From a virus, in the IMG/VR virus record IMGVR_UViG_3300032291_001599, positions 1-28,422 of that record: DNA of 28,422 bases. One strand, written 5' to 3'. Positions 1 through 24,489 of the stretch are shown here, in pieces. How positions within the stretch are numbered: the first letter of the stretch is position 1; each line of letters starts with the position of its first letter. A program made the position numbers and the translations under genes. The notes beneath the pieces were generated by a model. It saw nothing but the letters and a program-made list of their open reading frames with translations, had not been told where the DNA came from and did not search any database.

Positions 1-1866
1 GGTAACATCGGGTTGAAACACCTTAAAGTTATCAAAGAAGACACAATTAACAAGTGGGACAAATTAGGCTTTTTGGATGGTCTAAGAGGTCACTTAAAAG
101 AAAACGTGGCTCAATTATATGAGAACCAAGCATCTTACTTAATTAACGAAGCAACTTCAGACGGAGGTTCAAACGGAGCGTTCGAAACAGTTGTTTTCCC
201 AATTGTAAGACGTGTATTCTCTAAATTATTGGCTAACGACATCGTTTCAGTACAAGCTATGAACTTACCAATCGGTAAATTGTTCTACTTTGTACCAAGA
301 ATCCAAGGTTATGCTAATGACGTACAAAATGACGGAGGTGCAGTTCATTACCCACCAATCGGTTCACCTGAAGCGGTAAACGACGGAACAAATAATCCAG
401 GTCAAGGTTACCCAGGTTCAAACGCATCACCTAACTACCCTTACGGTAAAAACCTTTATGACTTGTTCTACGAAGGTAATGAGGCGGCTTTAGATCCTCC
501 AGGATTGTTTGACTACTCTAAAGGTAGATGGACTGCTTGTTCTAGTAACACTACAGTTCAAACATGGGTAAATGGTGAATTAGTTGACGCAAACACTATT
601 GGTTTATTAAGTGTTTACACTGGTAACACAAGAAAAGTATTGATGAAACTTTGTGGATTTACTCCTGTAGGTGCTGGTAAACTTATCGGTCCTGATGGTC
701 AAGAAATGGACACTGAATCATTCTTATCTGATTTAACTATCCAAAGTTTGGCTGGATTGGGTGTAAACGCAGTTACACCATGTACTGTAGGTAGTGGACC
801 ACTTTTATTTAGAGTTGTTACACAAATCTACGGAAAAGGTATCGTTCAATACGGTAACCAAACTCAAACAAACTTCAACAACTACACATACAGTTCAAAC
901 CCAACTGCTATGGCAACAAACGCAGGAAATGGTGGTAACTATTGGGATATCTGTGACTCACAAGGTTGTATTTATCTTGAAGTAGATCTTTCTTGTCCAG
1001 CATGTGCTAACTGTGGTGATACATCATTAGATGGTTACACAGGTACTACAATTAGTGCTATTACTTCAGGTACTTCATTTATCGCTACTTGGAGACGTTA
1101 CGAAGAAATGGAATTCGAAGACAAAATTGGTGAAGTTTCTTTTGACCTTGAGTCAGTAACTGTATCTGTTACAGAAAGAAAACTAAGAGCACAATGGTCT
1201 CCTGAATTAGCTCAAGACGTTGCGGCATTCCATAACATCGACGCTGAGGCTGAATTGACAGCATTGTTGTCAGAACAAGTAGCAGCTGAGATCGACCGTG
1301 AAATTTTACGTGACTTACGTAAAGGTGCGGCTTGGAACTTACGTTGGGACTACAACGGATGGAGAAGAATTAACGCTACTACATCTTACACTCAAAAAGA
1401 CTGGAACCAAACTTTGATTACAGCAATCAACCAATTGTCTGCACAAATCCACAAATCTACTTTGAGAGGTGGTGCTAACTGGATCGTTGTATCTTCTGAG
1501 GTTTCTGCAATCTTTGATGACTTAGAATACTTCCACGTATCTAACGCGGCTCCTGATCAAGATCAATACAACATGGGTATTGAAAGAGTTGGAACATTAT
1601 CAGGTCGTTACCAAGTTTATCGTGATCCTTACTTCCCACCAAACCAAGTTTTGATTGGACACAAAGGAACTTCATTGTTAGACACAGGTTACATTTATGC
1701 ACCGTATGTTCCTCTACAATTAACACCTACAATGTATAACCCATTCAACTTCACGCCAATCAAAGGTATTATGACCAGATACGCGAAGAAGATGGTAAAT
1801 AACCGCTTTTACGGAAGAATTACCGTAGATGGTGTTAGAACATTCGATTTAAGAGAATTGAGATAA
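1..1866 (+). CDS. 23: Major capsid protein, T4 gp23-like (5' end probably outside window)
   Basis: This is the shell-forming protein of a T4-like head. Landmarks shared with T4 gp23 are the VFPIVRRVFSKLLANDIVSVQ segment near residues 61-81, where T4 has VRRAIPNLIAFDICGVQPMN, the ELAQDVAAFHNIDAEAEL segment near 398-415, EIDREILRDL after it, and the C-terminal YIYAPYVPL. LINE|A at residues 43-47 (TTG numbering) matches the T4 prohead-protease site LTE|A, so a short propeptide is probably removed on maturation. The frame is open from base 1. The only in-window start is a TTG at 13 without a visible ribosome site, so the true start may lie upstream. At about 617 residues it is longer than T4 gp23 (521). 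The extra length lies in the central insertion domain, which holds a cysteine cluster (C314, C319, C328, C331, C334). A strong terminator follows. The family call is secure; the start is not. Confidence 0.95.
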   Translation, partial: GNIGLKHLKVIKEDTINKWDKLGFLDGLRGHLKENVAQLYENQASYLINEATSDGGSNGAFETVVFPIVRRVFSKLLANDIVSVQAMNLPIGKLFYFVPRIQGYANDVQNDGGAVHYPPIGSPEAVNDGTNNPGQGYPGSNASPNYPYGKNLYDLFYEGNEAALDPPGLFDYSKGRWTACSSNTTVQTWVNGELVDANTIGLLSVYTGNTRKVLMKLCGFTPVGAGKLIGPDGQEMDTESFLSDLTIQSLAGLGVNAVTPCTVGSGPLLFRVVTQIYGKGIVQYGNQTQTNFNNYTYSSNPTAMATNAGNGGNYWDICDSQGCIYLEVDLSCPACANCGDTSLDGYTGTTISAITSGTSFIATWRRYEEMEFEDKIGEVSFDLESVTVSVTERKLRAQWSPELAQDVAAFHNIDAEAELTALLSEQVAAEIDREILRDLRKGAAWNLRWDYNGWRRINATTSYTQKDWNQTLITAINQLSAQIHKSTLRGGANWIVVSSEVSAIFDDLEYFHVSNAAPDQDQYNMGIERVGTLSGRYQVYRDPYFPPNQVLIGHKGTSLLDTGYIYAPYVPLQLTPTMYNPFNFTPIKGIMTRYAKKMVNNRFYGRITVDGVRTFDLRELR

Positions 1867-2882: not shown

Positions 2883-3827
2883 ATGGGTAAGTTAGATAGA
2901 ATAATAAAAAAAGTCATTAAGGAGGCAACTGGCGATAGTAGTGGAGGTAGAGGAAGTTATGCACCACCGATGCAACCTGGTCTTAGATATTGGGAAGATT
3001 CGTCTTTGGGTCCTTTTACAGATGCGGTGTCAGACTTTAAAAGTCCTTTAGTTCAGTATGATAGTTATGATGAAAAATTCGATCTTAGAAGAAACCAAAT
3101 TATTAAATTAGAAAAAAACGCAGCTAAAATACAAAATTTTATCAAACATCACCCATATTCAACATTTTCAGATGATGATGGTAATCCTGTAAATCCATAC
3201 ATGCAAGATGGATTTAATCCAAATGTGAAAGAAAAATTATCACCATTCACACAAAAAGTCCCATTTAATGAGTGGATAGAATTGTCTGATGATAATTTAT
3301 TAAATGAGACTAGCACTACAGTTACCGCAGGTTTATACAACGCACCTTTAGAAATTGGTATTTATAAATGGAAAAATGAATTAGACCCTTTTACCGATTC
3401 TGTTGATTCATTTTATAATAGAACAATTAAAAAAAACACTCTTAAAAATAATATAAAAAGAACAGTTGGTGTTTGGGAAAAAGATAAAAATGGATCGTAT
3501 AAAAGAGATATAGATTATCCTGACACAATTAATGAAGATTTAGCTGTGTGGTTTGGAACAAAGAAGAAACCTAAAGGATCTTCTCAACCAAAAGGACCGT
3601 GGGTAAACATTTGTCGTAAAGTCGACGGAAAACACCCCCCTTGTGGTAGAACGGATACAAGTAAAAGTGCTTATCCAAAATGTCGAGCGGCTGGCGTGGC
3701 ATCTAAAATGAGTGATTCACAAAAAAGATCTGCTTGTCAACAAAAAAGAAGAGCCGAAAATAAAGATACTCAAACAGGTAAAGGTCAAAAACCTATTATG
3801 ACTTCATACAAACCAAGAAAAAAATAA
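2883..3827 (+). CDS. Putative internal head or virion protein with capsid-targeting N-terminus and Cys/Lys-rich tail
   Basis: The 314-aa protein is not a family I can name. It begins with a short basic amphipathic segment ending VIKE|A (residues 11-15). That fits the I/L-x-E|A pattern cut by T4 prohead protease and recalls the removable targeting peptide of T4 internal proteins. The body has a degenerate repeat: PFTDAVSDF at 44-52 and PFTDSVDSF at 169-177, each preceded by a Trp/Tyr-containing stretch. The tail (about 236-314) is very basic and has C244, H251, C254, C267 and C285 in a WVNICRK...HPPCGR...YPKCR...SAC arrangement. I have seen similar tails in other environmental phage proteins, but without a known function. 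Zinc or DNA binding is plausible. It sits between the capsid gene and the tail genes and carries the GATATTTATA box. Packaging into the head is inference. Confidence 0.7.
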   Translation: MGKLDRIIKKVIKEATGDSSGGRGSYAPPMQPGLRYWEDSSLGPFTDAVSDFKSPLVQYDSYDEKFDLRRNQIIKLEKNAAKIQNFIKHHPYSTFSDDDGNPVNPYMQDGFNPNVKEKLSPFTQKVPFNEWIELSDDNLLNETSTTVTAGLYNAPLEIGIYKWKNELDPFTDSVDSFYNRTIKKNTLKNNIKRTVGVWEKDKNGSYKRDIDYPDTINEDLAVWFGTKKKPKGSSQPKGPWVNICRKVDGKHPPCGRTDTSKSAYPKCRAAGVASKMSDSQKRSACQQKRRAENKDTQTGKGQKPIMTSYKPRKK

Positions 3828-4256
3828 TTACTTACTATTTTCGATATGTTGGTTTATTTTGTTTAATAAAGTGTCTAATGAATTTTTGATATTTGATTTA
3901 ACCATCACTTCAGTATTTGTTCGTCTTTTTTCGGTTTCCGTATCGTATAAATAAATAACTCTTTCATGATCTCTTTTTGACAAAACGACATCATAATGAA
4001 ATACATGATTTGTAATTTCAACTTTATTCCAATTAATAATGATAAAAAGATTGAGATCTTCATTGATTACATATCTTTTATCAGATAATGGAGCGATCAT
4101 GAAATCTGAAGTTGGGTGTGATATGACTTTAACACAAATTTTGAATGCAGTTTTTTCGTGTAAATCTACTTCTTCATGAGTAACCATATTGTTTCTCATT
4201 CTTTTAGCCATTCTAACCTTAAATCTTTTGTAGAATCTTCTAAATAATTTATTCAT
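3828..4256 (-). CDS. Hypothetical protein with basic N-terminus
   Basis: This 142-aa protein has no recognised family. The first 22 residues are strongly basic (Arg/Lys-rich: FRRFYKRFKVRMAKRMRNN). The remainder looks like a mixed alpha/beta domain with several hydrophobic strands (FKICVKVIS, LFIIINWNKVEI, RVIYLYD) and a helical C-terminus. No signal peptide or clear transmembrane helix is seen. Its stop codon directly abuts the stop codon of the converging 314-aa gene, with no base between them. It has its own well-formed Bacteroidetes-type promoter in the 69-nt gap upstream, unlike its neighbours. It may therefore be expressed early by unmodified host RNA polymerase, possibly as a nucleic-acid-binding host-takeover protein; that is speculation. 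An internal ATG at residue 16 is an alternative start. Confidence 0.65.
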   Translation of the reverse strand: MNKLFRRFYKRFKVRMAKRMRNNMVTHEEVDLHEKTAFKICVKVISHPTSDFMIAPLSDKRYVINEDLNLFIIINWNKVEITNHVFHYDVVLSKRDHERVIYLYDTETEKRRTNTEVMVKSNIKNSLDTLLNKINQHIENSK

Positions 4257-4271
4257 GGGTTTATTTATTAT

Positions 4272-4310
4272 TGTTCTACAAACATAGTAAATAAATTTTC
4301 TTAAAACAAA
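4272..4310 (-). promoter_or_regulatory. Bacteroidetes-type promoter (TTTG - 20 nt - TATGTTTG)
   Basis: On the minus strand TTTG (4310-4307) is followed after 20 nt by TATGTTTG (4286-4279). This matches the -33/-7 consensus of Bacteroidetes primary sigma factor promoters (TTTG and TAnnTTTG). The expected start of transcription is near 4272, about 15 nt before the ATG at 4256. The site is the main direct hint of host phylum in the window. Confidence 0.6.
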
Positions 4311-4325
4311 TATAAAATTAAAAAA

Positions 4326-4769
4326 TTAACAATAAGGTGGGGAACATTTTTTCTTCCCGTCTAATCCTTTTATTTTACCTTTACATACTTGGACAGCGTG
4401 GCCATTACTATAAGCTGAGGGATACACGTCATATTTTGCCTTAGCAGATGCCTTACCTCTAGCACAAAGTTTTGTTCCTGTTTTTTTTCTACCTTCCATC
4501 ATCATGTCATCAGAATGGTCTTCACCCTCCACTTCATTCATTATAAAATCAAAAACTTGATCCATATTGTTTTTTGCTTCACTAATATGATCTTGAGCCC
4601 AATCATGTCCATTTTCTAATATTTCTTCAATCATAGATTGATCCATATCTAACAATAAATCACATTGTCTTTTCATTTGTTCTAAATTTGAAAAGAACAT
4701 ATATCTTGAAGATTTTTCTTCGTGTGTTTCTCTAATAACTTTTCTAATGATTGAGTTTAAATTTTTCAT
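4326..4769 (-). CDS. Putative internal head or virion protein with capsid-targeting N-terminus and Cys tail
   Basis: The 147-aa protein begins with MKNLNSIIRKVIRE|T, nearly the same as the first 14 residues of the 314-aa protein encoded at 2883, although the two are otherwise unrelated. Residues 15-90 are acidic and helical. Residues 93-147 form a compact basic tail with C102, C129, C142 and C147 and the pattern KLCARGKASAKAKYDVYPSAY, a recurrent C-terminal module in environmental phage proteins of unknown role as far as I recall. Its ATG lies 3 nt after the stop codon of the 125-aa gene upstream, so the two are probably co-expressed. The acidic middle with a basic, cysteine-bearing end suggests a packaged or scaffold-like protein. 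This is inferred from the shared N-terminus and the context. Confidence 0.7.
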   Translation of the reverse strand: MKNLNSIIRKVIRETHEEKSSRYMFFSNLEQMKRQCDLLLDMDQSMIEEILENGHDWAQDHISEAKNNMDQVFDFIMNEVEGEDHSDDMMMEGRKKTGTKLCARGKASAKAKYDVYPSAYSNGHAVQVCKGKIKGLDGKKKCSPPYC

Positions 4770-4772
4770 ATA

Positions 4773-5150
4773 TTAGTTGTTTAAACCATTTGGTCCTCCT
4801 AATTGAACCGCATTTAATTGTGTCACAGCATTTCCATTATTGTTTGTCCAAACAGGGTGTGGGAATTGTAATTCAACAAGATTTCCATCACAATCTCTTG
4901 TGCAAAGAGTATATGCGGTATTTGCAGATAAAGGGATATATTGATTACAGTCATAACAAGAATCAAATAAAGTTCCTATATTATATACTGGTCCAGGAAG
5001 TAATGGGGATCCACCAACGAATGTTGCACAATATGTAGTTCCTGTTAAACTTACAGAATAAGTTTCACCCGTATTTGGGGTTAACGCTGCGGTGTCTACT
5101 TTAATGTAAACCCCAGACTGAAAACACACCTCAAATCTTTCTATTGCCAT
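4773..5150 (-). CDS. Cys-rich small protein, probable virion component
   Basis: The 125-aa product looks like a small all-beta domain rich in Gly, Thr and Pro, with six cysteines (C9, C41, C65, C68, C83, C87), two pairs of them close together (SCYDC and LCTRDC). Units of this kind, with a YCATF strand and a DSCYDC turn, remind me of repeats in large virion proteins of environmental tailed phages, but I cannot name a family. No signal peptide is present. The ATG carries a GATATTTATA box 12 nt upstream, the mark shared by late genes here, and the gene lies between structural genes. A decoration or fibre-associated role is a guess; paired cysteines could bind zinc or form disulfides in the finished particle. 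Confidence 0.65.
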   Translation of the reverse strand: MAIERFEVCFQSGVYIKVDTAALTPNTGETYSVSLTGTTYCATFVGGSPLLPGPVYNIGTLFDSCYDCNQYIPLSANTAYTLCTRDCDGNLVELQFPHPVWTNNNGNAVTQLNAVQLGGPNGLNN

Positions 5151-5162
5151 AATATTTTATTT

Positions 5163-5172
5163 TATAAATATC
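5163..5172 (-). promoter_or_regulatory. GATATTTATA box before the 125-aa Cys-rich gene
   Basis: GATATTTATA on the minus strand ends 12 nt before the start codon at 5150, in the 25-nt gap after the 489-aa gene. It is identical in sequence and spacing to the box at 6658-6667. Confidence 0.5.
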
Positions 5173-10775: not shown

Positions 10776-11519
10776 TTAGTTTTTAAGTAATTCTTGGACT
10801 AACTCAAAATACAACTTTTTATATTTTTTAATTGAATTTCTTATTTCTTTAGTCGATAAATTAGTCATCTCTCTAAGCTCAAATAAAATAATATTTTTGT
10901 TAAATTTGTTATTATTTGTATCAGGAAATATAGTTCCATAATTCTCAAACAAATCACATATTGCAGATCCTAATTTATGTTCTTGTTCATTACATTCACT
11001 ATCATCAAGATCTTGTTTTAGTTTTTCTAAAAACTTTTTAATTACATATTCAGAACTCAAATCGTCATTATCAATTACGTATGACATTTCAGTTCTATTA
11101 GTAAGATCTGAAGAAATATCCTCATAAGAAATCTTTCTGTTCATTTCCTTTTGGTCTTTCATAATCTGACCCATAAGGTAATTTTTACAAATAGTCCCTA
11201 AGTATGAATACGCTTTCTTTTCTTTTGAAGGTTTAAATTTTTCAATCTTCGTCATCAAAAACGAATGAGTGTCGATATGTATTTCTTCATAATCCATATC
11301 TTTTCTATATAATTTATATCTTCTAATGATAGAAGATATCATCTTATCTAAAGGATCTTTTAAAAACTCATTATATATTTTGTTACGTTCTTCAAAAGTT
11401 TCGGCCGTAAGAAAGTTTCTCACGGCCTCTTCTTCTCTTACATCAAAATAATTGTTAGTTGTTGGTTTACGTCCTTTCTTTTTCTTTTCTACCGATATTT
11501 CTTCACCATTCCCTAACAT
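10776..11519 (-). CDS. 55: Late-transcription sigma factor, gp55-like
   Basis: In T4, gp55 is the small sigma factor that directs host RNA polymerase to late promoters. This 247-aa protein has the same core: a helical sigma-2-like segment at about 55-125. Here IIRRYKLYRKDMDYEEIHID...IEKFKPSKEKKAYSYLGTICKNYLMGQIMKDQKE lines up with T4 gp55 KRFNF...KQEMIADG...[34 protein letters not shown]. A basic N-terminus (EKKKKGRKPT) and a longer C-terminal helical part with LSTKEIRNSIKKYKKLYF (a possible helix-turn-helix) make it larger than T4 gp55 (185). Its ATG overlaps the stop of the upstream glycosyltransferase (TAATG), so it is made together with the sugar operon before the late genes. The TATTTATA boxes downstream are candidates for its target. 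Confidence 0.85.
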   Translation of the reverse strand: MLGNGEEISVEKKKKGRKPTTNNYFDVREEEAVRNFLTAETFEERNKIYNEFLKDPLDKMISSIIRRYKLYRKDMDYEEIHIDTHSFLMTKIEKFKPSKEKKAYSYLGTICKNYLMGQIMKDQKEMNRKISYEDISSDLTNRTEMSYVIDNDDLSSEYVIKKFLEKLKQDLDDSECNEQEHKLGSAICDLFENYGTIFPDTNNNKFNKNIILFELREMTNLSTKEIRNSIKKYKKLYFELVQELLKN

Positions 11520-12325
11520 TAAATTTCTTGGGGTTCGTAATTTATATCCCTCTCATTTGTGAAGAAATATTCTTTTTTCGCCGAGTCAATCCAAAATTTC
11601 GCTTCATCTTGTGTGATTCTATTGTCACCATTTTTGTAATTCCAAAAAATAGATCCTTCTCTCAAATTCATATGTTTGTATCCAATTCTAGGAATGGTCA
11701 TAATTCTTGCTGAGTTGTGAGTCAAACGTAAAAATAACTCGTAACCAAAAGTAAGTTTTAAATTAGATTTAAATCCGCCTACTTCTAAAAATTTTTCTTT
11801 TTTGAAAACCATACCTGATGTTTGGAAGTTTTGAAAAGTTTGTAAAGTTTCATTTGTTAAAATACCCATTTCACTTGAAATATTCTGTGCAAATGTTGCT
11901 TCATTTGTAAATCCTGCGAATACTAATTTATCATCAATGTCAACAACAATCGGAAGAAATGCATCAACATTTTTGTAAATATCCATATAGTTAATGGCAT
12001 TTTTAAACCAAATATTTGAATACTCATCATCAAATTCTAAAATTGAACACCAATTAGAGTTTGCAATTGAAACTCCGTGATTAACTTGTTTTCCAAAATT
12101 TGGTTCTTCAGACCAACTTTCTAAAACTACATTTAAATCACCAAAATCGTATGAAGTTAAATGTAATGTTAAATAATCTTCTGAACCATGAACAATGATT
12201 AATTCATTAACATAGTCTTTTTGATTTTTAACTGATTGAATAGCCTTGTCAAAAAAATCAACAAAACTGATTGCTTTTCCTGATTTGATTGGTAATATAA
12301 CCGATACTTTATTTTCTGTGTTCAT
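11519..12325 (-). CDS. Family 2 (GT-A) glycosyltransferase
   Basis: The 268-aa protein has a GT-A fold typical of family 2. It opens with a strand VSVILPIKSG (8-17) and an ELIIVHGSED strand near 41-50. LEFDDEY (97-103) occupies the place of the metal-binding DxD. GGFKSNLKLTFGYELFLRL matches the acceptor-loop segment, where other family-2 enzymes have GGFDE...EDxDLxxR. The acidic motif is D-D-E rather than the usual D-x-D, which may alter metal or donor choice. It probably transfers a sugar from a nucleotide sugar to a glycan or protein in the cytoplasm; no transmembrane segment is seen. It begins 2 nt after the stop of the GT-B enzyme upstream and is coupled to the sigma factor downstream. 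Donor and acceptor are unknown. Confidence 0.8.
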   Translation of the reverse strand: MNTENKVSVILPIKSGKAISFVDFFDKAIQSVKNQKDYVNELIIVHGSEDYLTLHLTSYDFGDLNVVLESWSEEPNFGKQVNHGVSIANSNWCSILEFDDEYSNIWFKNAINYMDIYKNVDAFLPIVVDIDDKLVFAGFTNEATFAQNISSEMGILTNETLQTFQNFQTSGMVFKKEKFLEVGGFKSNLKLTFGYELFLRLTHNSARIMTIPRIGYKHMNLREGSIFWNYKNGDNRITQDEAKFWIDSAKKEYFFTNERDINYEPQEI

Positions 12326-12327
12326 AA

Positions 12328-13386
12328 TTAAATAGTTTCAAATTTTGATAGTTGATCTTCAAATGAAGTGATTCTTTTTTCAAAAATGTCACCAAATAAA
12401 CTTAAAGTTTCATTTTCAAATTTTTCTTTATTACTAATTGTTTCGAGTGTTAGATTCATTCTGTCGAACAATTCAGGATTTAAATTGTCTTCTAACCAAT
12501 TTTGAATAAAATCGGATAAAACATCTACAATAATCGTTTTGTTGTTCACCCAAAGTCCATTATCTTCATTCATCCAAGAAGGAACGACATCAGGAACTAA
12601 ACCTAATACAGGAATCCCCATTTTCATAGACTCTAATGGAAATGTTCCAAATGAACTTGTTTGGTCAATCCAAATAGAAATAAAACTATCTTTCATTGCT
12701 TCTGCAAATTCATTTTCACTTAAACCTCTGAGGTCTCTAAAAGTAATCCATCTATATTGTGGAAACTTTACGTAAAAAGTTTTGATAAGATTTGCGGTGT
12801 CTCTCTGATCTCTTGTATGGATATTAATAATTGTTTTTGGTGGGTATTCATTCTTTTGAAAAACATCAGAAATATAAGGAGCCACAACATCTACTGTAAC
12901 ATTTCTCATTACAGATTGGATTAGTTCTTTTTGTTTTTCTGAAGTTGTAATACATTTGTAGAATCCTAATTGTGTCCAAGATTGACCAGGTTGTAAAGTT
13001 TCAAACATATGATCAAAAGCTTGACTTAAAACAATTTTACCACATGGTAATTTAGTGATTTGATCCATAACAAATCCATAAATTTCAGGGATAATAATTA
13101 AATCATCAGGTGAAATTTCTAAACTTGTTCCTTCGATTGCACGATGGTCCAACTCAGTCATATATTCTTCACCTAACCATGATGATACTCCAAAGTATTC
13201 AGGTTTTTCATGTAAAATAATGGCGTTATATCCATTTCTTTTTAATGTTAATGCCATTTGGTAAATGTATCTAACAGATGCCTTGGCGTTTCCTTTTGTG
13301 TCTTGAACCATAAAATAAATTCTTGAAAGTTTTTCTTTCATTTTATTTATGGACATTTCTAATTTTTCGTGATTGTCGTTGTTCAT
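12328..13386 (-). CDS. GT-B glycosyltransferase (family 4-like)
   Basis: This 352-aa protein resembles retaining GT-B enzymes. An N-terminal Rossmann half begins with RIYFMVQDTKGNAKASVRYIYQMALTLKRNGY (22-53). The C-terminal half carries SFGTFPLESMKMGIPVLGL (245-263), the counterpart of the nucleotide-binding FGxxxLEAMACGxPV motif. The key Glu of that motif is present. The first 18 residues are a charged extension, and an internal ATG at residue 16 is an alternative start. No membrane anchor is visible. It belongs to the continuous minus-strand sugar operon. The glycosyltransferase fold is secure, while donor and acceptor cannot be read from the sequence. Confidence 0.8.
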   Translation of the reverse strand: MNNDNHEKLEMSINKMKEKLSRIYFMVQDTKGNAKASVRYIYQMALTLKRNGYNAIILHEKPEYFGVSSWLGEEYMTELDHRAIEGTSLEISPDDLIIIPEIYGFVMDQITKLPCGKIVLSQAFDHMFETLQPGQSWTQLGFYKCITTSEKQKELIQSVMRNVTVDVVAPYISDVFQKNEYPPKTIINIHTRDQRDTANLIKTFYVKFPQYRWITFRDLRGLSENEFAEAMKDSFISIWIDQTSSFGTFPLESMKMGIPVLGLVPDVVPSWMNEDNGLWVNNKTIIVDVLSDFIQNWLEDNLNPELFDRMNLTLETISNKEKFENETLSLFGDIFEKRITSFEDQLSKFETI

Positions 13387-13392
13387 ATCTTA

Positions 13393-13650
13393 TTATATTT
13401 TGTTTATTATGTTTTTTACTCTTAAACTATTAAAAGAAATTTTAAATGGTATTGTTAGTTCACTATTATTAGGTCCTAACTTTTCATCAACGGGTTCAAT
13501 TTCAGTTAAGATGGTATCAACCATCATTTTAACCATTTCATACTTAACTAAATGGATTTGAGACTCACCCGAAGAATTTGTCATTTCCACTTCTTTTTCA
13601 ACTTTATCCAAATCGATGTAGTAATTTTCACCAAAAAGACTAAACAGCAT
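13393..13650 (-). CDS. Small protein of unknown function
   Basis: The 85-aa product has no recognised domain. It looks like a short alpha/beta domain: FGENYYIDLDKVEKEVEM at the start, then a helix (LVKYEMVKMMVDTILTEI), and a last strand (TIPFKISFNSLRVKNII). It overlaps the end of the upstream HAD-like gene by 11 nt and precedes the GT-B gene by 6 nt, so it is read as part of the operon. Its position between a nucleotidase-like protein and glycosyltransferases gives no clear clue. Confidence 0.6.
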   Translation of the reverse strand: MLFSLFGENYYIDLDKVEKEVEMTNSSGESQIHLVKYEMVKMMVDTILTEIEPVDEKLGPNNSELTIPFKISFNSLRVKNIINKI

Positions 13651-14302
13651 TATGTTTTAAATTTTTAATTATTTCTTGAAACTCAGAAAGTGAAGATATT
13701 TCGAGTTCTGAAGAAATGTGTTTATTGTATGTGGTATTATATTTTACAACAATTTTATCCACAGGTTTATTTAATAATAAGTCAGGGTTTGCTGTAAGTA
13801 AAATGTCTATTTGATCCCACATGTTATTTTTGGTGATTTCACTAAAAAAAACAACTTTTTCTAAAAGACAACCAAATTTTGATAAAAAGAAAAGTGATGA
13901 AGGTTTAGATTTACCAATTTCATTGGAGACGATAACAAGTTCGTTTTCTTCTCTTAATTCAAAATATAGATCGTTTAAAATGTTAAAAGTTGTCATTTCT
14001 GTTGATGGTGCATGACCAAATAATTCCATGGCATATTCTTCATACATAAAACTAAAAAGTTCTTCATTATTTTTAAATGAAAAATGTTTTATTAGATCAA
14101 GACTGGATACATCAGATAACTTTTGATATTCAAAAGATTCTTCAGTTGATTCAATCATTTCGGTATTTCCTGACATATCAAGTTCGTATGTCTGACCTAA
14201 AAAATCGTCTTCACTTTTTTCAATTAAATGTTTTTCATAAAGTTGTTCAAATTTTCCAATAGTGTCTCTTAACACACCATTAATATCAAGCCCTATTCTC
14301 AT
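13640..14302 (-). CDS. HAD-like protein with altered motif I (D-x-N)
   Basis: From ATG at 14302 the product is 220 aa and opens MRIGLDINGVLRDT. This is HAD motif I, whose nucleophile is D6, but the second acidic residue (normally Asp, acid/base) is N8. Motif II is VIVSNE (Ser of the T/S-N type). A helical cap appears to span about 20-110. The frame extends upstream to an ATG at 14365, adding 21 residues without family features and a long overlap with phoH. The ATG at 14302 reduces that overlap to 17 nt and starts exactly at the HAD strand, so I prefer it. The overall layout suggests a nucleotidase-like or phosphatase-like protein. Loss of the second Asp may mean weak or altered catalysis, or a binding role. 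Confidence 0.7.
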   Translation of the reverse strand: MRIGLDINGVLRDTIGKFEQLYEKHLIEKSEDDFLGQTYELDMSGNTEMIESTEESFEYQKLSDVSSLDLIKHFSFKNNEELFSFMYEEYAMELFGHAPSTEMTTFNILNDLYFELREENELVIVSNEIGKSKPSSLFFLSKFGCLLEKVVFFSEITKNNMWDQIDILLTANPDLLLNKPVDKIVVKYNTTYNKHISSELEISSLSEFQEIIKNLKHNAV

Positions 14303-15020
14303 CGTATTTTTGTAAAATTTTAGAAATAAGTGGATTTCTAACCACGTCTTTATCATTGAACTCAAAAGTCCCTATGTCATTTATAAAGTTAAATCTTGTT
14401 ATTGCATCGTAAAGACCTGATTGTTTTTTATCCTTATACCTATCAGTTTGTTCTAAATCTCCCGATATGAAAAATTTTGAACTAGATCCAATTCTTGTTA
14501 AAAGAAGTTTCATTTGATTAGGGGTTGAGTTCTGCGCTTCCTCAAAAATTAAAATTGAGTTGTCGATGTTCATTCCTCTCATATACGCCAAAGCAAAAAC
14601 CTCAATAATTTCAGCGTCTTTTAATTTTTCTTTTGCGTCTTTACCAATCAATTTGTTCAGTAAGTAATAAGATGGAAAAATATACGGATCTAATTTTTCT
14701 TCTAAATTCCCTGGTAATGATCCTAATTTTTCTTCTGCCTCAACCGCCGGTCTAACAATAATAATTTTTTCATAACCATTTCCAGGTTCCATTAAAAGAT
14801 CTACAGCCGCTTTCATTGCTATATAACTTTTACCAACACCAGCAGGTCCTGAACATATTGTGATTTGGTTTGATACTAAAATGTTGTAGTATTCTTTTTG
14901 ATTTTCAGTAAGAAATTTACTCCTTTGTTTTTTCTTTATTACCGAGTTTATAAAATCTTTTTTTGATTGTAGATTATTAGAGGACTCTTCATTTTGGATT
15001 GGTGTTTTTCTTCTTACCAT
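14286..15020 (-). CDS. phoH: PhoH-like P-loop ATPase
   Basis: This 244-aa protein matches the PhoH ATPase/RNA-helicase-like family common in marine and freshwater phages. It has Walker A GPAGVGKS (58-65), the family hallmark VRPAVEAEEKLGSLPG (89-104), a Walker B IFEEAQN (158-164) and the sensor-like SGDLEQTD (186-193). Most PhoH proteins have DEAQN; here the first residue is Glu. The N-terminal 40 residues are basic and low-complexity. The family binds ATP and has been linked to phosphate starvation in hosts and to RNA metabolism, but its role in phages is unsettled. It starts 3 nt after the cytidylyltransferase stop and overlaps the HAD-like gene downstream. The function label is by family only. 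Confidence 0.93.
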   Translation of the reverse strand: MVRRKTPIQNEESSNNLQSKKDFINSVIKKKQRSKFLTENQKEYYNILVSNQITICSGPAGVGKSYIAMKAAVDLLMEPGNGYEKIIIVRPAVEAEEKLGSLPGNLEEKLDPYIFPSYYLLNKLIGKDAKEKLKDAEIIEVFALAYMRGMNIDNSILIFEEAQNSTPNQMKLLLTRIGSSSKFFISGDLEQTDRYKDKKQSGLYDAITRFNFINDIGTFEFNDKDVVRNPLISKILQKYDENRA

Positions 15021-15023
15021 GTA

Positions 15024-15470
15024 TTATTTTAAAAAACGTTTATTTGATTCTTGGTTGTAAATTCTTTCTCTTAAATTTGTGGTTGAAAAGTTATGATCTC
15101 GTTTATTGTATACTAATTTTATACCTCGTTTTTGACAAATATTTTTAGCCGTAAATTCAGTGTCTTTATATTCCTCACCAATAATTCTTACATCTAAATC
15201 TAATGAAGAAAATATAGTTATCAACTCTTCTTCAGTATTATATGGAATAATCTTATCTACGTATTGAACGGAGTCTAATTGAATGTATCTTTCAACTAAA
15301 GATTGTATGGGTTTGTTTTTTTCAGGTCTATCTATCGACGGATCAACTTGCAATGCACATATTAGGTAGTCACAATATTTTTTACATTCTTCTAACATTA
15401 TAATGTGACCAGCATGTAACAGATCAAATGTTGAGCAAGTTATTCCTATAATTCTATTTTGTTTGTCCAT
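15024..15470 (-). CDS. Cytidylyltransferase-like nucleotidyltransferase
   Basis: At 148 aa this is a compact nucleotidyltransferase of the TagD/RfaE-C type. It has the signature TFDLLHAGH (14-22) with the HxGH motif H19-A-G-H22 that binds the nucleotide, and FSTTNLRERI near the end, corresponding to the ISTTxLRxRI signature. Its family joins CTP (or ATP) to a phosphorylated alcohol or sugar, for example glycerol-3-phosphate or heptose-1-phosphate. Close linkage to a GDP-mannose epimerase and a HisC-like PLP enzyme suggests that it makes a CDP-activated unit for the glycan. The unit could be glycerol, ethanolamine or a sugar, and this cannot be resolved here. It overlaps the epimerase gene by 17 nt. 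Confidence 0.85.
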   Translation of the reverse strand: MDKQNRIIGITCSTFDLLHAGHIIMLEECKKYCDYLICALQVDPSIDRPEKNKPIQSLVERYIQLDSVQYVDKIIPYNTEEELITIFSSLDLDVRIIGEEYKDTEFTAKNICQKRGIKLVYNKRDHNFSTTNLRERIYNQESNKRFLK

Positions 15471-16542
15471 TTACTTGATTATCTATCCATTTAAAAGTTT
15501 TTTTCATTCCAAGTTCAAGAGGTTCCGAAACAACCCACCCAATTTTTTCTTCGTATAGTTTATTATCAGAATTTCTACCTCTAACACCTACAGGACATTT
15601 AAAACCGTATTTTTTGATAAAATCCTCACCTTCTAAATTTTTAATGGTAATATTTTTACCTGAAATATTAATCGCCATTTGGGCTAATTCGTTTATTGTT
15701 ACCATTTCTTCCGACCCAATGTTAACAGGACCAATAAAGTTACTTTCCATTAGCCTTAATACCGATTCAACACATTCATCAATATATAAAAAAGATCTGG
15801 TTTGATTTCCATCTCCCCATACTTCTATTTCACCACCATCCGGTGTTTCAGATACTTTACGACACATAGCGGCAGGAGCCTTTTCTTTACCATCCTTCCA
15901 AGTTCCGTAAGGTCCAAAAATATTGTGAAATCTAGCAACCCTAACATTAAGATTGTAATTCCTCATAAACGAAAAATATAATCTTTCACTAAACAACTTT
16001 TCCCAACCATATTCAGAATCAGGATTTGCAGGATATGCCGATGATTCCTCACAATTAGGATTGTTCGGGTCTAATTGATTATGTTCGGGATACATACATG
16101 CCGATGACGAATAAAATAATTTTTTAACACCCGATAAAGATGAATAGTAACTCACATTTAAATTCACTAATGCCGAATTGTGCATGACATTTGCATCATT
16201 TTCTCCTGTAAAGATATAACCGGCCCCACCCATATCTGCGGCTAATTGGTAAACCTCATCAAATGGTATTATATCTGTATAAGGTTGTCTAAGGTAAGAG
16301 TAATTTTGAATGGCGTGATCTATAGTTTCTATTCTTAGAACTGATTCAACTATTTTAGGGTCTCTTAAATCGCCTAATATAAATTCACTACAATATTCAT
16401 TTTCTTTGAAGTATTCATGTTTTTTAATATCAACGACTCTAACGTAATTACCTTCATTAAATAATCGTTTAGATAAGTGGCCACCAATAAATCCCCCACC
16501 CCCGAGAATTAATATTTTTTTACCATTTTTTTGAGATTTCAT
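15454..16542 (-). CDS. GDP-mannose 3,5-epimerase-like NAD(P)-dependent enzyme
   Basis: The 362-aa protein is an extended SDR enzyme that closely follows plant GDP-mannose 3,5-epimerase. It has the Rossmann start ILILGGGGFIGGHL (10-23), LAADMGGAGYIFT, and SSSACMYPE with C149. EYGWEK has Y178 and K182 as the SDR Tyr-x3-Lys pair. FHNIFGPYGTWKDGKEKAPAA contains K221. Then follow WGDGNQTRSFLYIDECVESVLRL and GVRGRNSD. With a +4 shift the Cys/Tyr/Lys/Lys set coincides with the catalytic residues known for the Arabidopsis enzyme (C145, Y174, K178, K217). That enzyme turns GDP-mannose into GDP-L-galactose and GDP-L-gulose. About 20 extra residues lie before LAADMGG. The product would be a donor for one of the transferases in this operon. 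GDP-mannose must come from the host or from genes outside the window. Confidence 0.88.
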   Translation of the reverse strand: MKSQKNGKKILILGGGGFIGGHLSKRLFNEGNYVRVVDIKKHEYFKENEYCSEFILGDLRDPKIVESVLRIETIDHAIQNYSYLRQPYTDIIPFDEVYQLAADMGGAGYIFTGENDANVMHNSALVNLNVSYYSSLSGVKKLFYSSSACMYPEHNQLDPNNPNCEESSAYPANPDSEYGWEKLFSERLYFSFMRNYNLNVRVARFHNIFGPYGTWKDGKEKAPAAMCRKVSETPDGGEIEVWGDGNQTRSFLYIDECVESVLRLMESNFIGPVNIGSEEMVTINELAQMAINISGKNITIKNLEGEDFIKKYGFKCPVGVRGRNSDNKLYEEKIGWVVSEPLELGMKKTFKWIDNQVNGQTK

Positions 16543-17155
16543 TTACCGAATAATTTATATTTAGTTTATTGAAAATTTTATCACAACTCATTTTATCTGA
16601 AAACCAATTTGTTAACTCTTCTTTATTGAAGTGTTTAGAATTAACCCACCAATCTTCATAAAATAATGTCGGGTGGTCTTTTTGTGAAACGTCCCCACAT
16701 ATAAGAATATAACCGTTTTGTTTTAATAGATCTCTTTGAGGTAATTTTTCAAATGTTTCATATTCACTACTAAGGTATGAATCGTGTTCAATTGTTATTA
16801 CTTTAAATTCATATTTCGTCTTTAATACTTTTTCTAATAATTTAAAACGATCCCCAAGTACTTCCATATCTAAAGAAAGATAGTCAATAACTTTAGTATC
16901 ATAGTGAGAATCTAATAGTTCGTCTAAATTTACATTCATACAATCCTGTTGGATGAATTTATTTTTTCTTTCTTTCCATTCTTCACTATAATCTATAATA
17001 TCAAGGGATATCCCTGACCATCCATTTAATTCTAAAAGATAAGTATTATTAATGTTTTTAGGAAGATAACATCCTAAATCTAAGAATGTTCCGTTGTTTT
17101 TATTTAAGATATTATATACAAATATATCTTGTCCACATTGTGAGTATGATTCCAT
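16520..17155 (-). CDS. FkbM-family methyltransferase
   Basis: The protein follows the FkbM/methyltransferase-21 pattern: an N-terminal SYSQCGQDIFV, then the SAM-binding LDLGCYLPKNINNTYLLELNGWSGISLDI segment, then YLSLDMEVLGDRFKLLEK and the strand KVITIEHD. Family members O-methylate sugars or polyketide hydroxyls. I take the ATG at 17155 (211 aa) because it forms a TAATG overlap with the dehydrogenase stop, as at several junctions in this operon. The frame also reaches an ATG at 17173, adding six residues. Placed between the dehydrogenase and epimerase, it most likely methylates a sugar of the glycan. The acceptor is unknown. Confidence 0.85.
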   Translation of the reverse strand: MESYSQCGQDIFVYNILNKNNGTFLDLGCYLPKNINNTYLLELNGWSGISLDIIDYSEEWKERKNKFIQQDCMNVNLDELLDSHYDTKVIDYLSLDMEVLGDRFKLLEKVLKTKYEFKVITIEHDSYLSSEYETFEKLPQRDLLKQNGYILICGDVSQKDHPTLFYEDWWVNSKHFNKEELTNWFSDKMSCDKIFNKLNINYSVNEISKKW

Positions 17156-18369
17156 TATTTTTTTAAGTTCCAAGGATTTATTATTGTTTTATTTGATAAA
17201 TCATGTTCCATTATAGATTTATCATTGTGCATTATTAATATGATGTCAGACCATTCTACAAATTTATTTAAATATGGTATAGTTTCATTTGTGGTAACTA
17301 AAGGATCGTATGTTGATACTTTATAATTTTCATAAATTAATTTATCATATAAAAAGTAACCAGCAGATTCTGTAACAACAGTGGTTTTTGGTTTAAAAGA
17401 TAAACCATATATCCCTATTTTTTTATCTTTATATTCCGATACTTTATTGTATAAAAGATTAAATTGATTTTCATTTATTTTTTGGGTTGCCTTAATGTGA
17501 ACCGCATCTAAACCTAAATTTTCGGACATTTTAATAAATGCCCAAGTATCTCTTGGAAAACAAGTGCCCCCAAATGGTAATCCACTCTTTATGTAATAGG
17601 GGGAAATTCTTCTATCGTAACCAAGAGCTTTGGTTATATTATTTGGATTACAATTAAATTTATCCGAAATATTACCGATAAAATTAGCGAAACTAATTTT
17701 CATCGTAATGTAAGCGTTCAAACTTACCTTAGTTATCTCACTTTCAATCAAAGACATTCTAACAACAGGTGCGTTGTTTTTAATTATTTTGGAGTATATT
17801 GTTTCGGCAACATCGCCATATTTTTCATTACTTTCACCCATTATTAATAAATCAGGATTCTCAAAATCTTTAATAACAGAACCTAAAGCAACCAAATCAG
17901 GTATATAAACAAAACCAAAATCTTCGTTAAGTTTTTTATTTGTTTCAGATTCAATTTTGTTGATTAAATCAAGATGGGTTCCAGGCATAACTGTAGAACT
18001 CAATATGATTAAGAAATCACTTTTATTTGTTTTTTTTATTTTTTTACACAATTCTGTAATTGCTTCGTAAATGTACTTATTTGAAAAGTCCCCGTTTTCC
18101 GTTGATGGGGTGTTAACCAAAATTATAAAAACATCAGTTTCATTAACAACATTATCAAATGTCGTGTTTAGATCTATATTTTCATAACCACCATTAAGAT
18201 ATTCGTTTAATTGAGGTTCAAAAAAAGGAATTTTTTTAGCTTTAAGTAGGTTTATTTTATCTTGGTCAATATCAATACCAATTATTTTTTGATTGTTGTT
18301 TGCAAAAGTAACAAGTAGTGGGAGACCTAATTTACCTAAACCCACTAATGAAATTTTATCAATATTCAT
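17155..18369 (-). CDS. UDP-glucose/UDP-sugar 6-dehydrogenase family
   Basis: This 404-aa NAD-dependent dehydrogenase oxidises the C6 alcohol of a nucleotide sugar to a carboxylate in two steps. Features present are the dinucleotide fold GLGKLGLP (10-17), VNTPSTENGDFS (85-96), LSSTVMPGT, EITKVSLNAY with K214, and the active-site block GLPFGGTCFPRD with the catalytic C270. The usual substrate-loop PEFLxEG is replaced by PDLVALG (157-163), so it belongs to a less common branch. The substrate might be UDP-glucose, UDP-GlcNAc/ManNAc or GDP-mannose. It overlaps the HisC-like gene upstream by 11 nt. The uronic acid made would be a natural substrate for the CapK-like adenylating enzyme two genes earlier in the operon. 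Confidence 0.88.
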   Translation of the reverse strand: MNIDKISLVGLGKLGLPLLVTFANNNQKIIGIDIDQDKINLLKAKKIPFFEPQLNEYLNGGYENIDLNTTFDNVVNETDVFIILVNTPSTENGDFSNKYIYEAITELCKKIKKTNKSDFLIILSSTVMPGTHLDLINKIESETNKKLNEDFGFVYIPDLVALGSVIKDFENPDLLIMGESNEKYGDVAETIYSKIIKNNAPVVRMSLIESEITKVSLNAYITMKISFANFIGNISDKFNCNPNNITKALGYDRRISPYYIKSGLPFGGTCFPRDTWAFIKMSENLGLDAVHIKATQKINENQFNLLYNKVSEYKDKKIGIYGLSFKPKTTVVTESAGYFLYDKLIYENYKVSTYDPLVTTNETIPYLNKFVEWSDIILIMHNDKSIMEHDLSNKTIINPWNLKK

Positions 18370-19411
18370 AAATTATTTTTAGTGTCTTTATAATTGTCAT
18401 CATATCATCCATCTCCCCAATCGTGATTCTTACACAATTTTCTAAACCTATGAAATTTGACCTATCTCTAATAAGTATGTCTTTTTCCATAAGTCTGTTA
18501 ATTAGAAATGAACTATCTTTAACTCTAATTAAAACAAAATTAGACATAGACTCAATAAACTCAATATTTAATTTTTTTAATTCATTTACAAAAAATTCTT
18601 TATTCTTATTAACTTGATTTACTCTTTCTTTAATATATTGAATATTGTTTAATGCCGTTACTCCTAAGGTTTGGGCAAATGAATTGACTTCTTTTGTGTT
18701 TTTTATTTTATCAATTTGGTCAATATTAGTTTCATTTGTGCAGATATAACCTAATCGTATTGATGCTAATGAAAATGCTTTAGAAAATGTTCTTGTCACT
18801 ATGATATTATCAAAATCATTAGTTAAATCCACACAAGTCTTATCTGAAAACTCATAGTAAGCTTCATCTATTATAAACAACTTACTTGGGTAGAGTTTTA
18901 ATAATTCTTTAATAACTTCGGGTTCAATTATCTTACCTGTTGGGTTATTAGGGTTTGTAATGTACACAACATCATTATCATTAATATCCTCAAAATTATA
19001 TGTGTGATTACCGAATGGATCATTAATGTGAGAATAGTTTAAATTATTTGAATACAGTTGGATATAGCTTTCAACCTGATTGTAATTTGGGTAATACATT
19101 AACACTTTTGTTTCAGGATTTAAAAATGTTGCAAAAATATAATGTAATGCGGAGTCAGATCCATTAAATGTTTGAATTTTGTTTTTGTTAATCCCGCAAT
19201 AATTTTCTAATGCAATTAGTAACTCATCATTATTAATGTTTGGGTATTCGCTCAGGTTAACATTAAACACAGATCTTCTTAGTTTTAATAAGTAGCCCTC
19301 ATCAAATGTTAAATTACATTCATTCCAGTCTAATTTTTTTGTATCGATATTTTGAGACCTTTTTGACGGCGTATAATGTTTAATTTTAAGTAAATTTCTA
19401 TTAGTTTCCAT
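18359..19411 (-). CDS. HisC-like fold-type I PLP enzyme (aminotransferase or phospho-amino-acid decarboxylase)
   Basis: The 350-aa protein has the full fold-type I set: FNGSDSALHYIF (82-93), NPNNPTG (153-159), D182 in IDEAYYEF, the Schiff-base lysine K211 in RTFSKAFSLASIRLGY, R219 and a C-terminal LENCVRITIGEMDD. All are close to histidinol-phosphate aminotransferase. No other histidine genes are nearby, so a biosynthetic HisC role is unlikely. In Campylobacter capsule loci, HisC-like enzymes act on small phosphorylated substrates, giving serinol phosphate or ethanolamine phosphate. The adjacent HAD phosphatase and adenylating enzyme make this the better comparison. Its ATG overlaps the stop of the CapK-like gene (TAATG). 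Confidence 0.85.
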   Translation of the reverse strand: METNRNLLKIKHYTPSKRSQNIDTKKLDWNECNLTFDEGYLLKLRRSVFNVNLSEYPNINNDELLIALENYCGINKNKIQTFNGSDSALHYIFATFLNPETKVLMYYPNYNQVESYIQLYSNNLNYSHINDPFGNHTYNFEDINDNDVVYITNPNNPTGKIIEPEVIKELLKLYPSKLFIIDEAYYEFSDKTCVDLTNDFDNIIVTRTFSKAFSLASIRLGYICTNETNIDQIDKIKNTKEVNSFAQTLGVTALNNIQYIKERVNQVNKNKEFFVNELKKLNIEFIESMSNFVLIRVKDSSFLINRLMEKDILIRDRSNFIGLENCVRITIGEMDDMMTIIKTLKIIYEY

Positions 19412-20745
19412 TATTTTATTTCAGTTATTACACATCTTATTTTACCTGTTGATGGATCTCTTGGTATTTCACTAACAACCTCAACAACTAAAGGGACATT
19501 ACCAATTCTTTGGGTAACTTCGTTCTTAAGTTTAACTAAAGAATTATCATCAAATCCCTCATTAATAACAATACTTAATTTTGTTGATTTATCAATTTTT
19601 TGATAAAACTGAAACATTTTTATTTCTTTAATTTTAGACATTACAGTGTAAAAATTAACAGAAGGTATTTTAGAATTACTCTCAGAAACTATCATATCAT
19701 CAACCCTACCATCAATCTCTTCAATAATTAATGGTGATGAAAAGTTATAATTCGGAGCCTCCATTAATTTTACAACATCATTAGTTTTATATCTAATGAA
19801 TGGCATAACACGATTCATAAATGAGGTTCCGATTATTGTATTATTTTCATCGTATTCTGTGAAAGAATATGTTAAACTCTCGTGATAATTTTCACTAAAA
19901 GATGATTGGTAAGCAAAAGAAACCTTTTCAACTTGACCATAGTGCATTTTTAAATCAAAACCAAAGACACTTTTTATTTTTTCTGACCACATAGGGAGAC
20001 ATTTTTCAGATGCACCATGAATAGATTTCACCCTATCTAATCTCAAATTGTTTGTTTCTAATAAACAAGATAACCAATAAGCGGTTGATGGGTAAGTAAT
20101 AATTGTTTTGGTTTTTGATTGATTAATGATTTTTACGTAATCGTAAATAGTTTCATCGTTTAAATGAAATGCTGACAAATAAATCCTTTTTAATTCATAA
20201 TCTTTCACAACTAAATTATTTTTATCTTTAGGTGAATGTCTTCTAATCCAAACCGACCATTCACCATATAGATCACTACCATGTGATTTAAAACTATGTG
20301 AAATATATGCGGCCTCTTTTTTAAACATCGAATCTTCTCCGTAAAATTCTAATCTTTTACCGGTAGATCCTGAGGTTTTGAATAATATTTTTTTACCGTT
20401 AAAATTTTTTGATATCAAATCATCAAAATTATCCATAATAACTGTCTTAGTTAAGTATGGTAATTTTTTCATGTCATCAAATGATTGGATGTTTGGGTTA
20501 AACTCATGCTCAGCAAATAATTTACCGTAGTATGGTACATTTTTTTGTGAGTCAATCAAAACATTTTTAAGTTTATCTAATTGATATTGTCTCGTCCTGT
20601 CGTAACCCCAAAGATCAACCTCATCTAAAAAGTTAGATGTGTCATTATAAGTTTCACCATATCTTTTATTAAATGGGATTAAATTATAATAAATCTTTTT
20701 AATAAAATTAGGTTGTTTTTTTATTATTCTACTTACCACCCCCAT
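19411..20745 (-). CDS. CapK/PaaK-like adenylate-forming enzyme
   Basis: This 444-aa protein belongs to the phenylacetate-CoA ligase-like branch (CapK) of adenylate-forming enzymes. TSGSTGK (124-130) is the ATP-binding loop. IHGASEKCLPMWSEKIKSVF and MHYGQVEKVSFAYQ carry the middle motifs. FIRYKTNDVVKL and IDGRVDDMIV give the Arg and Asp-containing hinge, and IPRDPSTGKIR holds the C-terminal catalytic lysine region. CapK-type proteins occur in capsule loci and should activate a carboxylate as its adenylate, but few have proven substrates. The first 20 residues are basic and amphipathic (SRIIKKQPNFIKKIYYNL), perhaps for membrane contact. A carboxylate made by the nearby dehydrogenase, joined to an amine made by the PLP enzyme, is a testable guess. 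It overlaps the HAD gene by 17 nt. Confidence 0.85.
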   Translation of the reverse strand: MGVVSRIIKKQPNFIKKIYYNLIPFNKRYGETYNDTSNFLDEVDLWGYDRTRQYQLDKLKNVLIDSQKNVPYYGKLFAEHEFNPNIQSFDDMKKLPYLTKTVIMDNFDDLISKNFNGKKILFKTSGSTGKRLEFYGEDSMFKKEAAYISHSFKSHGSDLYGEWSVWIRRHSPKDKNNLVVKDYELKRIYLSAFHLNDETIYDYVKIINQSKTKTIITYPSTAYWLSCLLETNNLRLDRVKSIHGASEKCLPMWSEKIKSVFGFDLKMHYGQVEKVSFAYQSSFSENYHESLTYSFTEYDENNTIIGTSFMNRVMPFIRYKTNDVVKLMEAPNYNFSSPLIIEEIDGRVDDMIVSESNSKIPSVNFYTVMSKIKEIKMFQFYQKIDKSTKLSIVINEGFDDNSLVKLKNEVTQRIGNVPLVVEVVSEIPRDPSTGKIRCVITEIK

Positions 20746-21052
20746 TGAAAAAATCCTCAGAATTTATTCCTTTATCGTCAATAAAAAAATCTGAGTTAAA
20801 CTTTACTCCGGTTCTTAACTCATGAAATTTTAACCCAAAGTCAACAAGTTGGTTATATGTTTGTTCATACCAATTTTTTTTAGATACACAACCCCTTGCG
20901 GTCTCAACAATAATGTAATGACCGTCATTGTATAGATCGTTAACTTTATTTATTCTATCTGTAAATGGTTTTGCGTTTAAGTAGTCCCAATTACCCTCAC
21001 TATTTTTTTTAGTATCACATAGTGTGTTATCTAAATCAAAAACGTATCTCAT
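20729..21052 (-). CDS. Small HAD phosphatase of capsule-biosynthesis type
   Basis: At 107 aa this is a minimal, capless HAD enzyme. Motif I is FDLDNTLCDT with nucleophile D6 and acid/base D8, motif II is the T/S of VETARG (about 49-54), and the acidic motif IV is FIDDKG (about 90-95). Short HAD proteins like this occur in capsule and O-antigen loci and remove phosphate from sugar or alcohol phosphates. Both Asp residues of motif I are intact, unlike the HAD-like protein at 13640. The gene is held between glycosyltransferase and CapK-like genes by overlaps of 4 and 17 nt. It may dephosphorylate the product of the PLP enzyme or cytidylyltransferase substrates. Confidence 0.82.
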   Translation of the reverse strand: MRYVFDLDNTLCDTKKNSEGNWDYLNAKPFTDRINKVNDLYNDGHYIIVETARGCVSKKNWYEQTYNQLVDFGLKFHELRTGVKFNSDFFIDDKGINSEDFFNGGGK

Positions 21053-23921: not shown

Positions 23922-23922
23922 A

Positions 23923-24483: not shown

Positions 24484-24489
24484 TTAATA

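Follow-up and report, generated by a model that had tools for sequence, protein, structure and literature searches.

A putative T4-type capsid-targeting leader on many unrelated cargo proteins, some of them modular, in a lineage of T4-like phages

The window analysed here, meaning the whole stretch of 28,422 nucleotides, is a genome fragment from IMG/VR (28.4 kb) and belongs to a T4-like phage. It opens inside the gene of the major capsid protein (MCP) gp23 (1-1866, + strand; PF07068, E=1.2e-73), the 5' end of which lies before the window start. Directly 3' of the capsid gene, an endonuclease VII/HNH-like ORF (1973-2653, +; phrog_1035, 4e-15) probably encodes a homing endonuclease. The two genes considered in this study, those of cargo protein A (2883-3827, +; 314 amino acids, modular) and cargo protein B (4326-4769, -; 147 amino acids), are each defined by an ORF, by orthologues and by alignment. 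A long run at 11519-27551 (-) holds apparent glycosyltransferase, sugar-nucleotide and glycan genes, as judged from the ORF sequences only. Relatives were collected by a capsid-protein search of IMG/VR, which returned 80 related loci, and the contigs examined comprised three long ones (296, 273, and 229 kb), three shorter ones (152, 104, and 90 kb) and the cultured Flavobacterium phage immuto.

Proteins A and B have in common a 14-residue N-terminal segment ending in [IV]-x-E, beyond which their sequences differ. The original prediction had described this sharing, and both ORFs do have the N-termini it gave: upon translation, protein A starts MGKLDRIIKKVIKE|ATG and protein B starts MKNLNSIIRKVIRE|THE, and the segment is kept in the orthologues. 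It had also held that the two proteins diverge entirely, which is correct for their sequences but not for their organization, since each consists of modules, the last of which is small, basic and Cys-containing.

In protein A, the leader MGKLDRIIKKVIKE occupies 2883-2924 (+), with a predicted cut after E14 (base 2924), and a helix is predicted at residues 3-16 with low confidence. It is followed by module A1 (ATGDSSGGRGSY...; 2925-3308, +), which ends in LLNE with a predicted internal cut after E142, by module A2 (TSTTVTAGLYNAP...; 3309-3536, +), which ends in TINE with a predicted internal cut after E218, and by the basic, Cys-containing module A3 (DLAVWFG...CRK...CGR...KCRAAG...; 3537-3824, +), a member of phrog_23735, for which no function is named. 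Residues E218-G225 are invariant in the protein A alignment, and the TAGLYN module that follows A1 is preceded by E in 5/5 distinct examples, with V, I or L at P3. Orthologues in relatives keep the leader segment, in many cases with the cut context [IV][KR]E|AT[SG]D. For protein A, AF2 gave a model of low quality (mean pLDDT 49).

In protein B, the leader MKNLNSIIRKVIRE (4728-4769, -; predicted cut after E14) precedes a helical module B1 (YMFFSNLEQM...GHDWAQDH...; 4494-4727, -), which has a predicted cut after E92 (MMME|G), and module B2 (GRKKTGTKLCARG...YPSAY...VQVCKG...; 4329-4493, -), which is again basic and Cys-containing and belongs to phrog_27331, function not named. The AF2 model of protein B gives pLDDT values mostly of 80-94 for residues 23-80 and below 50 for residues 83-97, so that the predicted E92|G93 site falls within a disordered stretch linking folded parts. 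Protein B is present in 20/20 larger relatives searched, and E14 of its leader is invariant in 39 aligned orthologues, of which the leaders are the 14-residue form, MRITESQLNNLVKKIVTE, or the 22-residue MKRIVKLTESDLNRIIEKVIKE, all ending at the same invariant E. For proteins A and B there is no Pfam family, searches of PHROGs and of PDB sequences gave no function either, and a Foldseek search with the protein B model returned no match.

The original prediction had read a LKVIKED stretch as the start of the capsid protein. This does not hold, as the capsid proteins of relatives begin with MGALLESGLVGNIGLKHLKVIKED... and the similarity is internal; the stretch looked N-terminal because the window opens inside the capsid gene. 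The second feature it had pointed out in this protein, LINE|A, is a genuine and invariant site. The maturation site LINE|ATSD lies at 139-162 (+), with the cut expected after base 150, and INE|A is invariant over 94 rows with 29 distinct contexts. INE|ATSD sits at about the position where T4 gp23 loses its propeptide, which is 65 residues long according to PMC5694885.

A look for a gp21 homologue just upstream of the window had been proposed. Of 23 relatives, 21 encode an S77 (gp21-type) protease, and in the mapped genomes its gene lies about 2-4 kb upstream of the MCP gene; the window begins downstream of where this gene would lie, and S77 is known from the relatives. It is encoded in 18/18 leader-bearing contigs with a strong gp23 match. 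Leader contigs without S77 are also without this terminase and without gp23, except for one weak, sub-cutoff gp23 match, and they contain no S78 protease. These contigs are therefore probably fragments, and we rejected the idea that they represent leader-bearing phages without the protease.

The predicted cut sites within proteins A and B follow one rule. [ILVMF]xE stands directly before the DLAVWFG module of protein A in 36/36 distinct sequences, and hydrophobic-x-E directly before the LCARG module of protein B in 33/33. When only mutually dissimilar upstream contexts were kept (17 for DLAVWFG and 16 for LCARG), P1 was E and P3 hydrophobic in 33/33, with P4-P12 mixed. [ILVMF]-x-E thus precedes both downstream modules in every relative, despite unrelated preceding sequence. 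Further, each of these modules has small free-standing counterparts elsewhere, whose first residue lies only a few positions away from the predicted cut. Stand-alone B2-type proteins of 52-56 amino acids starting MAKLCARG are present in P-SCSP2 and HTVC106P, and in the Prochlorococcus phage P-SCSP2 the MAKLCARG... gene adjoins the scaffold gene. The stand-alone relative of module A3 is gp52 of pelagiphage HTVC023P, where gp51-gp52 (L304:4998-5650) represent the C-terminal modules of A and B as adjacent stand-alone genes. Since the two are adjacent in this unrelated phage, the C-terminal modules of A and B probably work together.

The proteases of T4 and SPN3US cleave after glutamate, and T4 Alt is cleaved at both ends, at ITE-6 and LTE-619 (both from PMC5694885). 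At the level of sequence, the [ILVMF]-x-E of the junctions is the cleavage rule of T4 gp21. The proposal that the shared segment ends in a prohead-protease site is consequently well supported, as the edge of conservation exactly after [IV]xE, the internal junctions, the S77 protease of relatives and the MCP site all agree with it.

The segment was further suggested to be usable for finding more cargo. This is borne out, except that the commoner form proved to be a 22-residue leader, MKRIIRLTESDLTRIVKRVIKE, which replaces the 14-residue form on the same cargo in some relatives. Many leaders in the six related contigs conform to MK(K/R)(I/V)(I/V)(R/K)LTESDLxRIVKRVIxE. A search of these six genomes for the motif [ILVMF][IVL]x[KR]x[ILV]xE found 61 occurrences in the first ~30 residues of proteins vs. 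about 6 expected from the motif density elsewhere in the same proteins, so that leaders, short or long, are about 10-fold over-represented at N-termini. Plain chance as the source of the shared segment was rejected on this count; that orthologues of A and B keep the segment, with E14 invariant in those of protein B, likewise argues against chance.

An IMG/VR scan with a DNA pattern for the long leader, which fixed residues 1-3 and 6-12 only, yielded at least 110 leader ORFs. Among the matches listed together with the genomes, there are at least 102 families, mutually unrelated past the leader, among at least 124 leader proteins. In the same set, columns 13-22 are conserved although they lie outside the search pattern, and conservation stops right after the E: E22 still carries 3.2 bits of information, column 24 only 0.4. 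About half of the long leaders have Q or E at P1'. All synonymous codons are used and vary freely at the conserved columns, therefore the constraint acts on the peptide, and conservation at the RNA level was rejected.

In the literature that could be searched, no paper described this leader, and there appears to be no earlier account of the leader family, of its scale or of the chained modules. A tblastn search of cultured phages with the 23-residue leader alone gave no match, the query probably being too short, and the leader is not known from a cultured phage. In Flavobacterium phage immuto, S77 and IVSE|A in the MCP are present, but no LTESDL-type leader genes were seen.

Leader and cargo can also be recombined. 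The 14-residue leader of protein B is replaced by the 22-residue leader in L179, L200, L235, L285, and L294. A second leader with its cargo is fused in frame behind protein A in L002, L004, L014, L020, L032, L056, and L274; for example, the fusion in L004 reads ...TNE|NMKRIINLTESDLQRIVLRVLNE|QKEE.... In L237, protein A and the second leader cargo are two adjacent genes, not fused, and some other protein A relatives finish in a leader-like tail (NESLDRLIDKIIKEIK). A leader with its cargo therefore behaves as one unit, which phages gain, exchange and fuse.

Little can be said of the cargo from similarity. The 43 leader proteins compared match 8 PHROGs, none with a named function, vs. 40 PHROGs matched by 44 size-matched control proteins, including thymidylate synthase, nucleotide kinases and tail tube. 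No leader was seen on identified housekeeping genes. Leader proteins show scattered matches to NUDIX, LysM and peptidoglycan-binding domains and one DHH-like match, which do not in themselves mark virion proteins. As a separate observation, a protein of 423-460 amino acids encoded just upstream of the terminase gene (G001 157237-158508; L109:18637-19905; relatives in L013, L020, L023, L024, and L041) bears a leader [IV]xE|APVDYGDYPERM, and is a candidate internal head protein.

A ATATTTATA-like element with the core TATTTAT is over-represented before genes. The core is located 14-40 bases upstream of the start in 17/21 long-leader genes and 15/32 head/tail genes, compared with 3/24 replication/metabolism genes and 130/847 other genes (for long-leader genes, Fisher p=1e-10 vs. 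others and 4e-6 vs. replication genes); among genes with other motif matches it precedes only 7/27. In the window, one TATTTAT (2864-2870, +) lies 19 bases before gene A, and another (5164-5170, -) lies before gene 4773-5150 (-), which precedes gene B with a 3-base gap. Head genes are expressed late in related phages, as reported in PMC9723584, and we infer that the TATTTAT-type element is a late promoter. The TATTTATA element might be recognized by the product of 10776-11519 (-), which is a weak match to the late sigma factor of T4 (phrog_234, E=0.0035).

Taken together, we hypothesize that the shared N-terminus serves many cargo proteins, some of which are modular polyproteins cut at several sites, as a capsid-targeting sequence of the T4 type that they lose in the prohead, a reading that we consider probable. 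An amphipathic leader of 11-22 residues would bind the prohead core and bring in the protein it heads while the head is being assembled. After that, the S77 (gp21-like) prohead protease would cut after [ILVMF]-x-E, taking the leader off and, in proteins such as A and B, also cutting between the downstream modules, so that several small proteins would stay with the DNA in the mature head, and the mature cargo pieces may be delivered along with it. The phage lineage would put one exchangeable leader, mostly the 22-residue MK(K/R)IIRLTESDLTRIVKRVIKE, on many unrelated, fast-changing cargo proteins. We hold the predicted cleavage of the leader by the prohead protease with high confidence, and the predicted targeting of leader proteins to the head is likely; for putative delivery of the cargo to the host, the balance tips slightly in favor. 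Packaging is supported indirectly, by the element that leader genes have in common with head/tail genes, by the lack of leaders on identified housekeeping genes and by an architecture like that of T4 IPII and IPIII. Features that weigh against this reading are the frequent Q or E at P1', the DHH-like, NUDIX, LysM and peptidoglycan-binding matches among leader proteins, the leader variant on genes of Bacteroidales metagenome-assembled genomes, and the low share of TATTTAT elements (7/27) before genes with other motif matches.

Alternatively, the leader proteins might be core or assembly proteins, which, like T4 gp22, gp67, and gp68, dock and are processed for head assembly with nothing delivered. 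The protease rule would then be identical, A and B are kept in place beside the capsid gene in many relatives, and the basic A3 and B2 modules could bind DNA or the core. However, the extreme diversity of the long-leader proteins, with at least 102 families among at least 124 proteins, suits accessory cargo better, as does the arrangement of their genes in strings scattered over the genome (e.g., G002 234152-238341), and we regard a pure assembly role as unlikely.

It is less plausible still that the leader is a docking helix for a membrane, a replication compartment, RNA polymerase or the ribosome, with the E capping the helix and no cutting taking place. The leader is basic, amphipathic and modelled as a helix, some cargo is enzyme-like and the cut is a prediction. 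Yet xE is also kept at internal junctions, where there is no leader helix, and in shrunken leader forms (MNSKKKHISE|A and MKNNKIHINE|G), and the leader co-occurs with S77. We consider it very improbable that shared ancestry alone explains the leader, as a mobile start region or N-terminal exon that was copied between genes and retained for expression or translation. Copying and recombination are evident from the strings of leader genes and the in-frame fusions, but the conservation lies in the amino acids and not in the choice among synonymous codons, and three leader types stop at the same invariant E.

The principle of a capsid-targeting tag is already known from T4, in which the capsid-targeting sequence (CTS) of IPI, IPII, IPIII, and Alt is likewise a short N-terminal peptide on unrelated proteins with hydrophobic-x-E at the cut, and the leader lineage shares with T4 a gp21-type protease and a gp23 capsid protein. 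In database sequences, T4 IPII and IPIII have MKTYQEFIAE|A in common but differ beyond it. Work with mutants of the T4 peptide showed that residues 4 and 7 are needed for targeting, and residues 8 and 10 for processing (PMC9026906). These residues correspond to P7, P4, P3, and P1, all of which are strongly conserved in the leader (columns 16, 19, 20, and 22), and P7 and P4 (columns 16 and 19) are hydrophobic. Over the 10 residues that can be compared with MKTYQEFIAE, the hydrophobic spacing matches, but the residues do not. The leader matches the T4 CTS in those features that sequence can test, which suggests that it would work in the same way. By contrast, it has another, mostly longer sequence, and it occurs on far more proteins per genome, with about 10-20 motif matches in each of the three largest contigs, a few of them by chance. 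Further, P1' is A at the T4 IP sites examined, as at the MCP site here, whereas it is often Q or E in the new leader, which is also found internally and at the C-termini of fused proteins.

Other systems share individual features. The SPN3US prohead protease cuts after A-x-E in head propeptides of the SPN3US/phiKZ type (gp53, gp54, and others), and two diverged SPN3US ejection-protein paralogues have identical N-terminal 15 residues; however, many of these propeptides exceed 100 residues, and the accessible part of the source describes no genome-wide standard leader (PMC5694885). In the polyvalent proteins of phages, several domains make up one polypeptide, for which packaging followed by splitting into units has been proposed (Iyer et al., 2017, PMC5512222), but these proteins have an internal peptidase domain and large enzymatic domains, in contrast to the small modules found here, for which the proposed cutter is the prohead protease. 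The Bacteroidetes phages that encode bS21 have the same kind of head-gene cluster, and the accessible part of the paper describing them covers bS21 and transcription with no mention of the leader (PMC9723584). In G002, a bS21 gene (ribosomal protein S21; PF01165, 7e-8; 185278-185532, +) lies inside the head cluster on the opposite strand.

If the proposed capsid-targeting role is correct, one short pattern would predict which small proteins without assigned function are virion passengers in large Bacteroidota phages, and probably the first to reach the host. Many hypothetical proteins would thereby become candidate early effectors or counter-defence proteins that can be put to the test. It would provide a cargo tag for Bacteroidota phages comparable to the T4 CTS, and would suggest that head proteins are made as chains of modules and cut in the prohead. 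More broadly, an exchangeable standard tag might, in a large Bacteroidota T4-like group, bring into the head a wide and rapidly changing range of host-takeover proteins, most of them uncharacterized and some of them module chains diced by the prohead protease; we see the case for this broader proposal as evenly poised, and if it holds, the tag alone would list the injected repertoire of any such genome.

The leader pattern was also searched in bacterial and archaeal genomes (257 billion bases in all), where it occurs in 17 stretches, about ten of them leader-like and almost all of these in metagenome-assembled genomes (MAGs); one MAG with three leader-like stretches also carries an S77 gene. 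A leader gene in a Prevotella MAG has a weak ADP-ribosyltransferase resemblance (E=0.006), which recalls T4 Alt but proves nothing. In Bacteroidales MAG contigs (L309, L315, L319, and L325), a gut-type variant, MKKxIRLTESDLHRIVKESVKRVLxE, heads short genes, and the product of one of these bears the weak likeness to ADP-ribosyltransferases. It is found on about seven Bacteroidales MAG genes, at least some of which (L309 and L325) have ordinary chromosomal neighbours, and these are possibly captured phage genes. Finally, a recurrent N-terminus, MKIIITE[ND]QY..., at G001 166712 and G002 237417, may represent a further class of leader in the same genomes.
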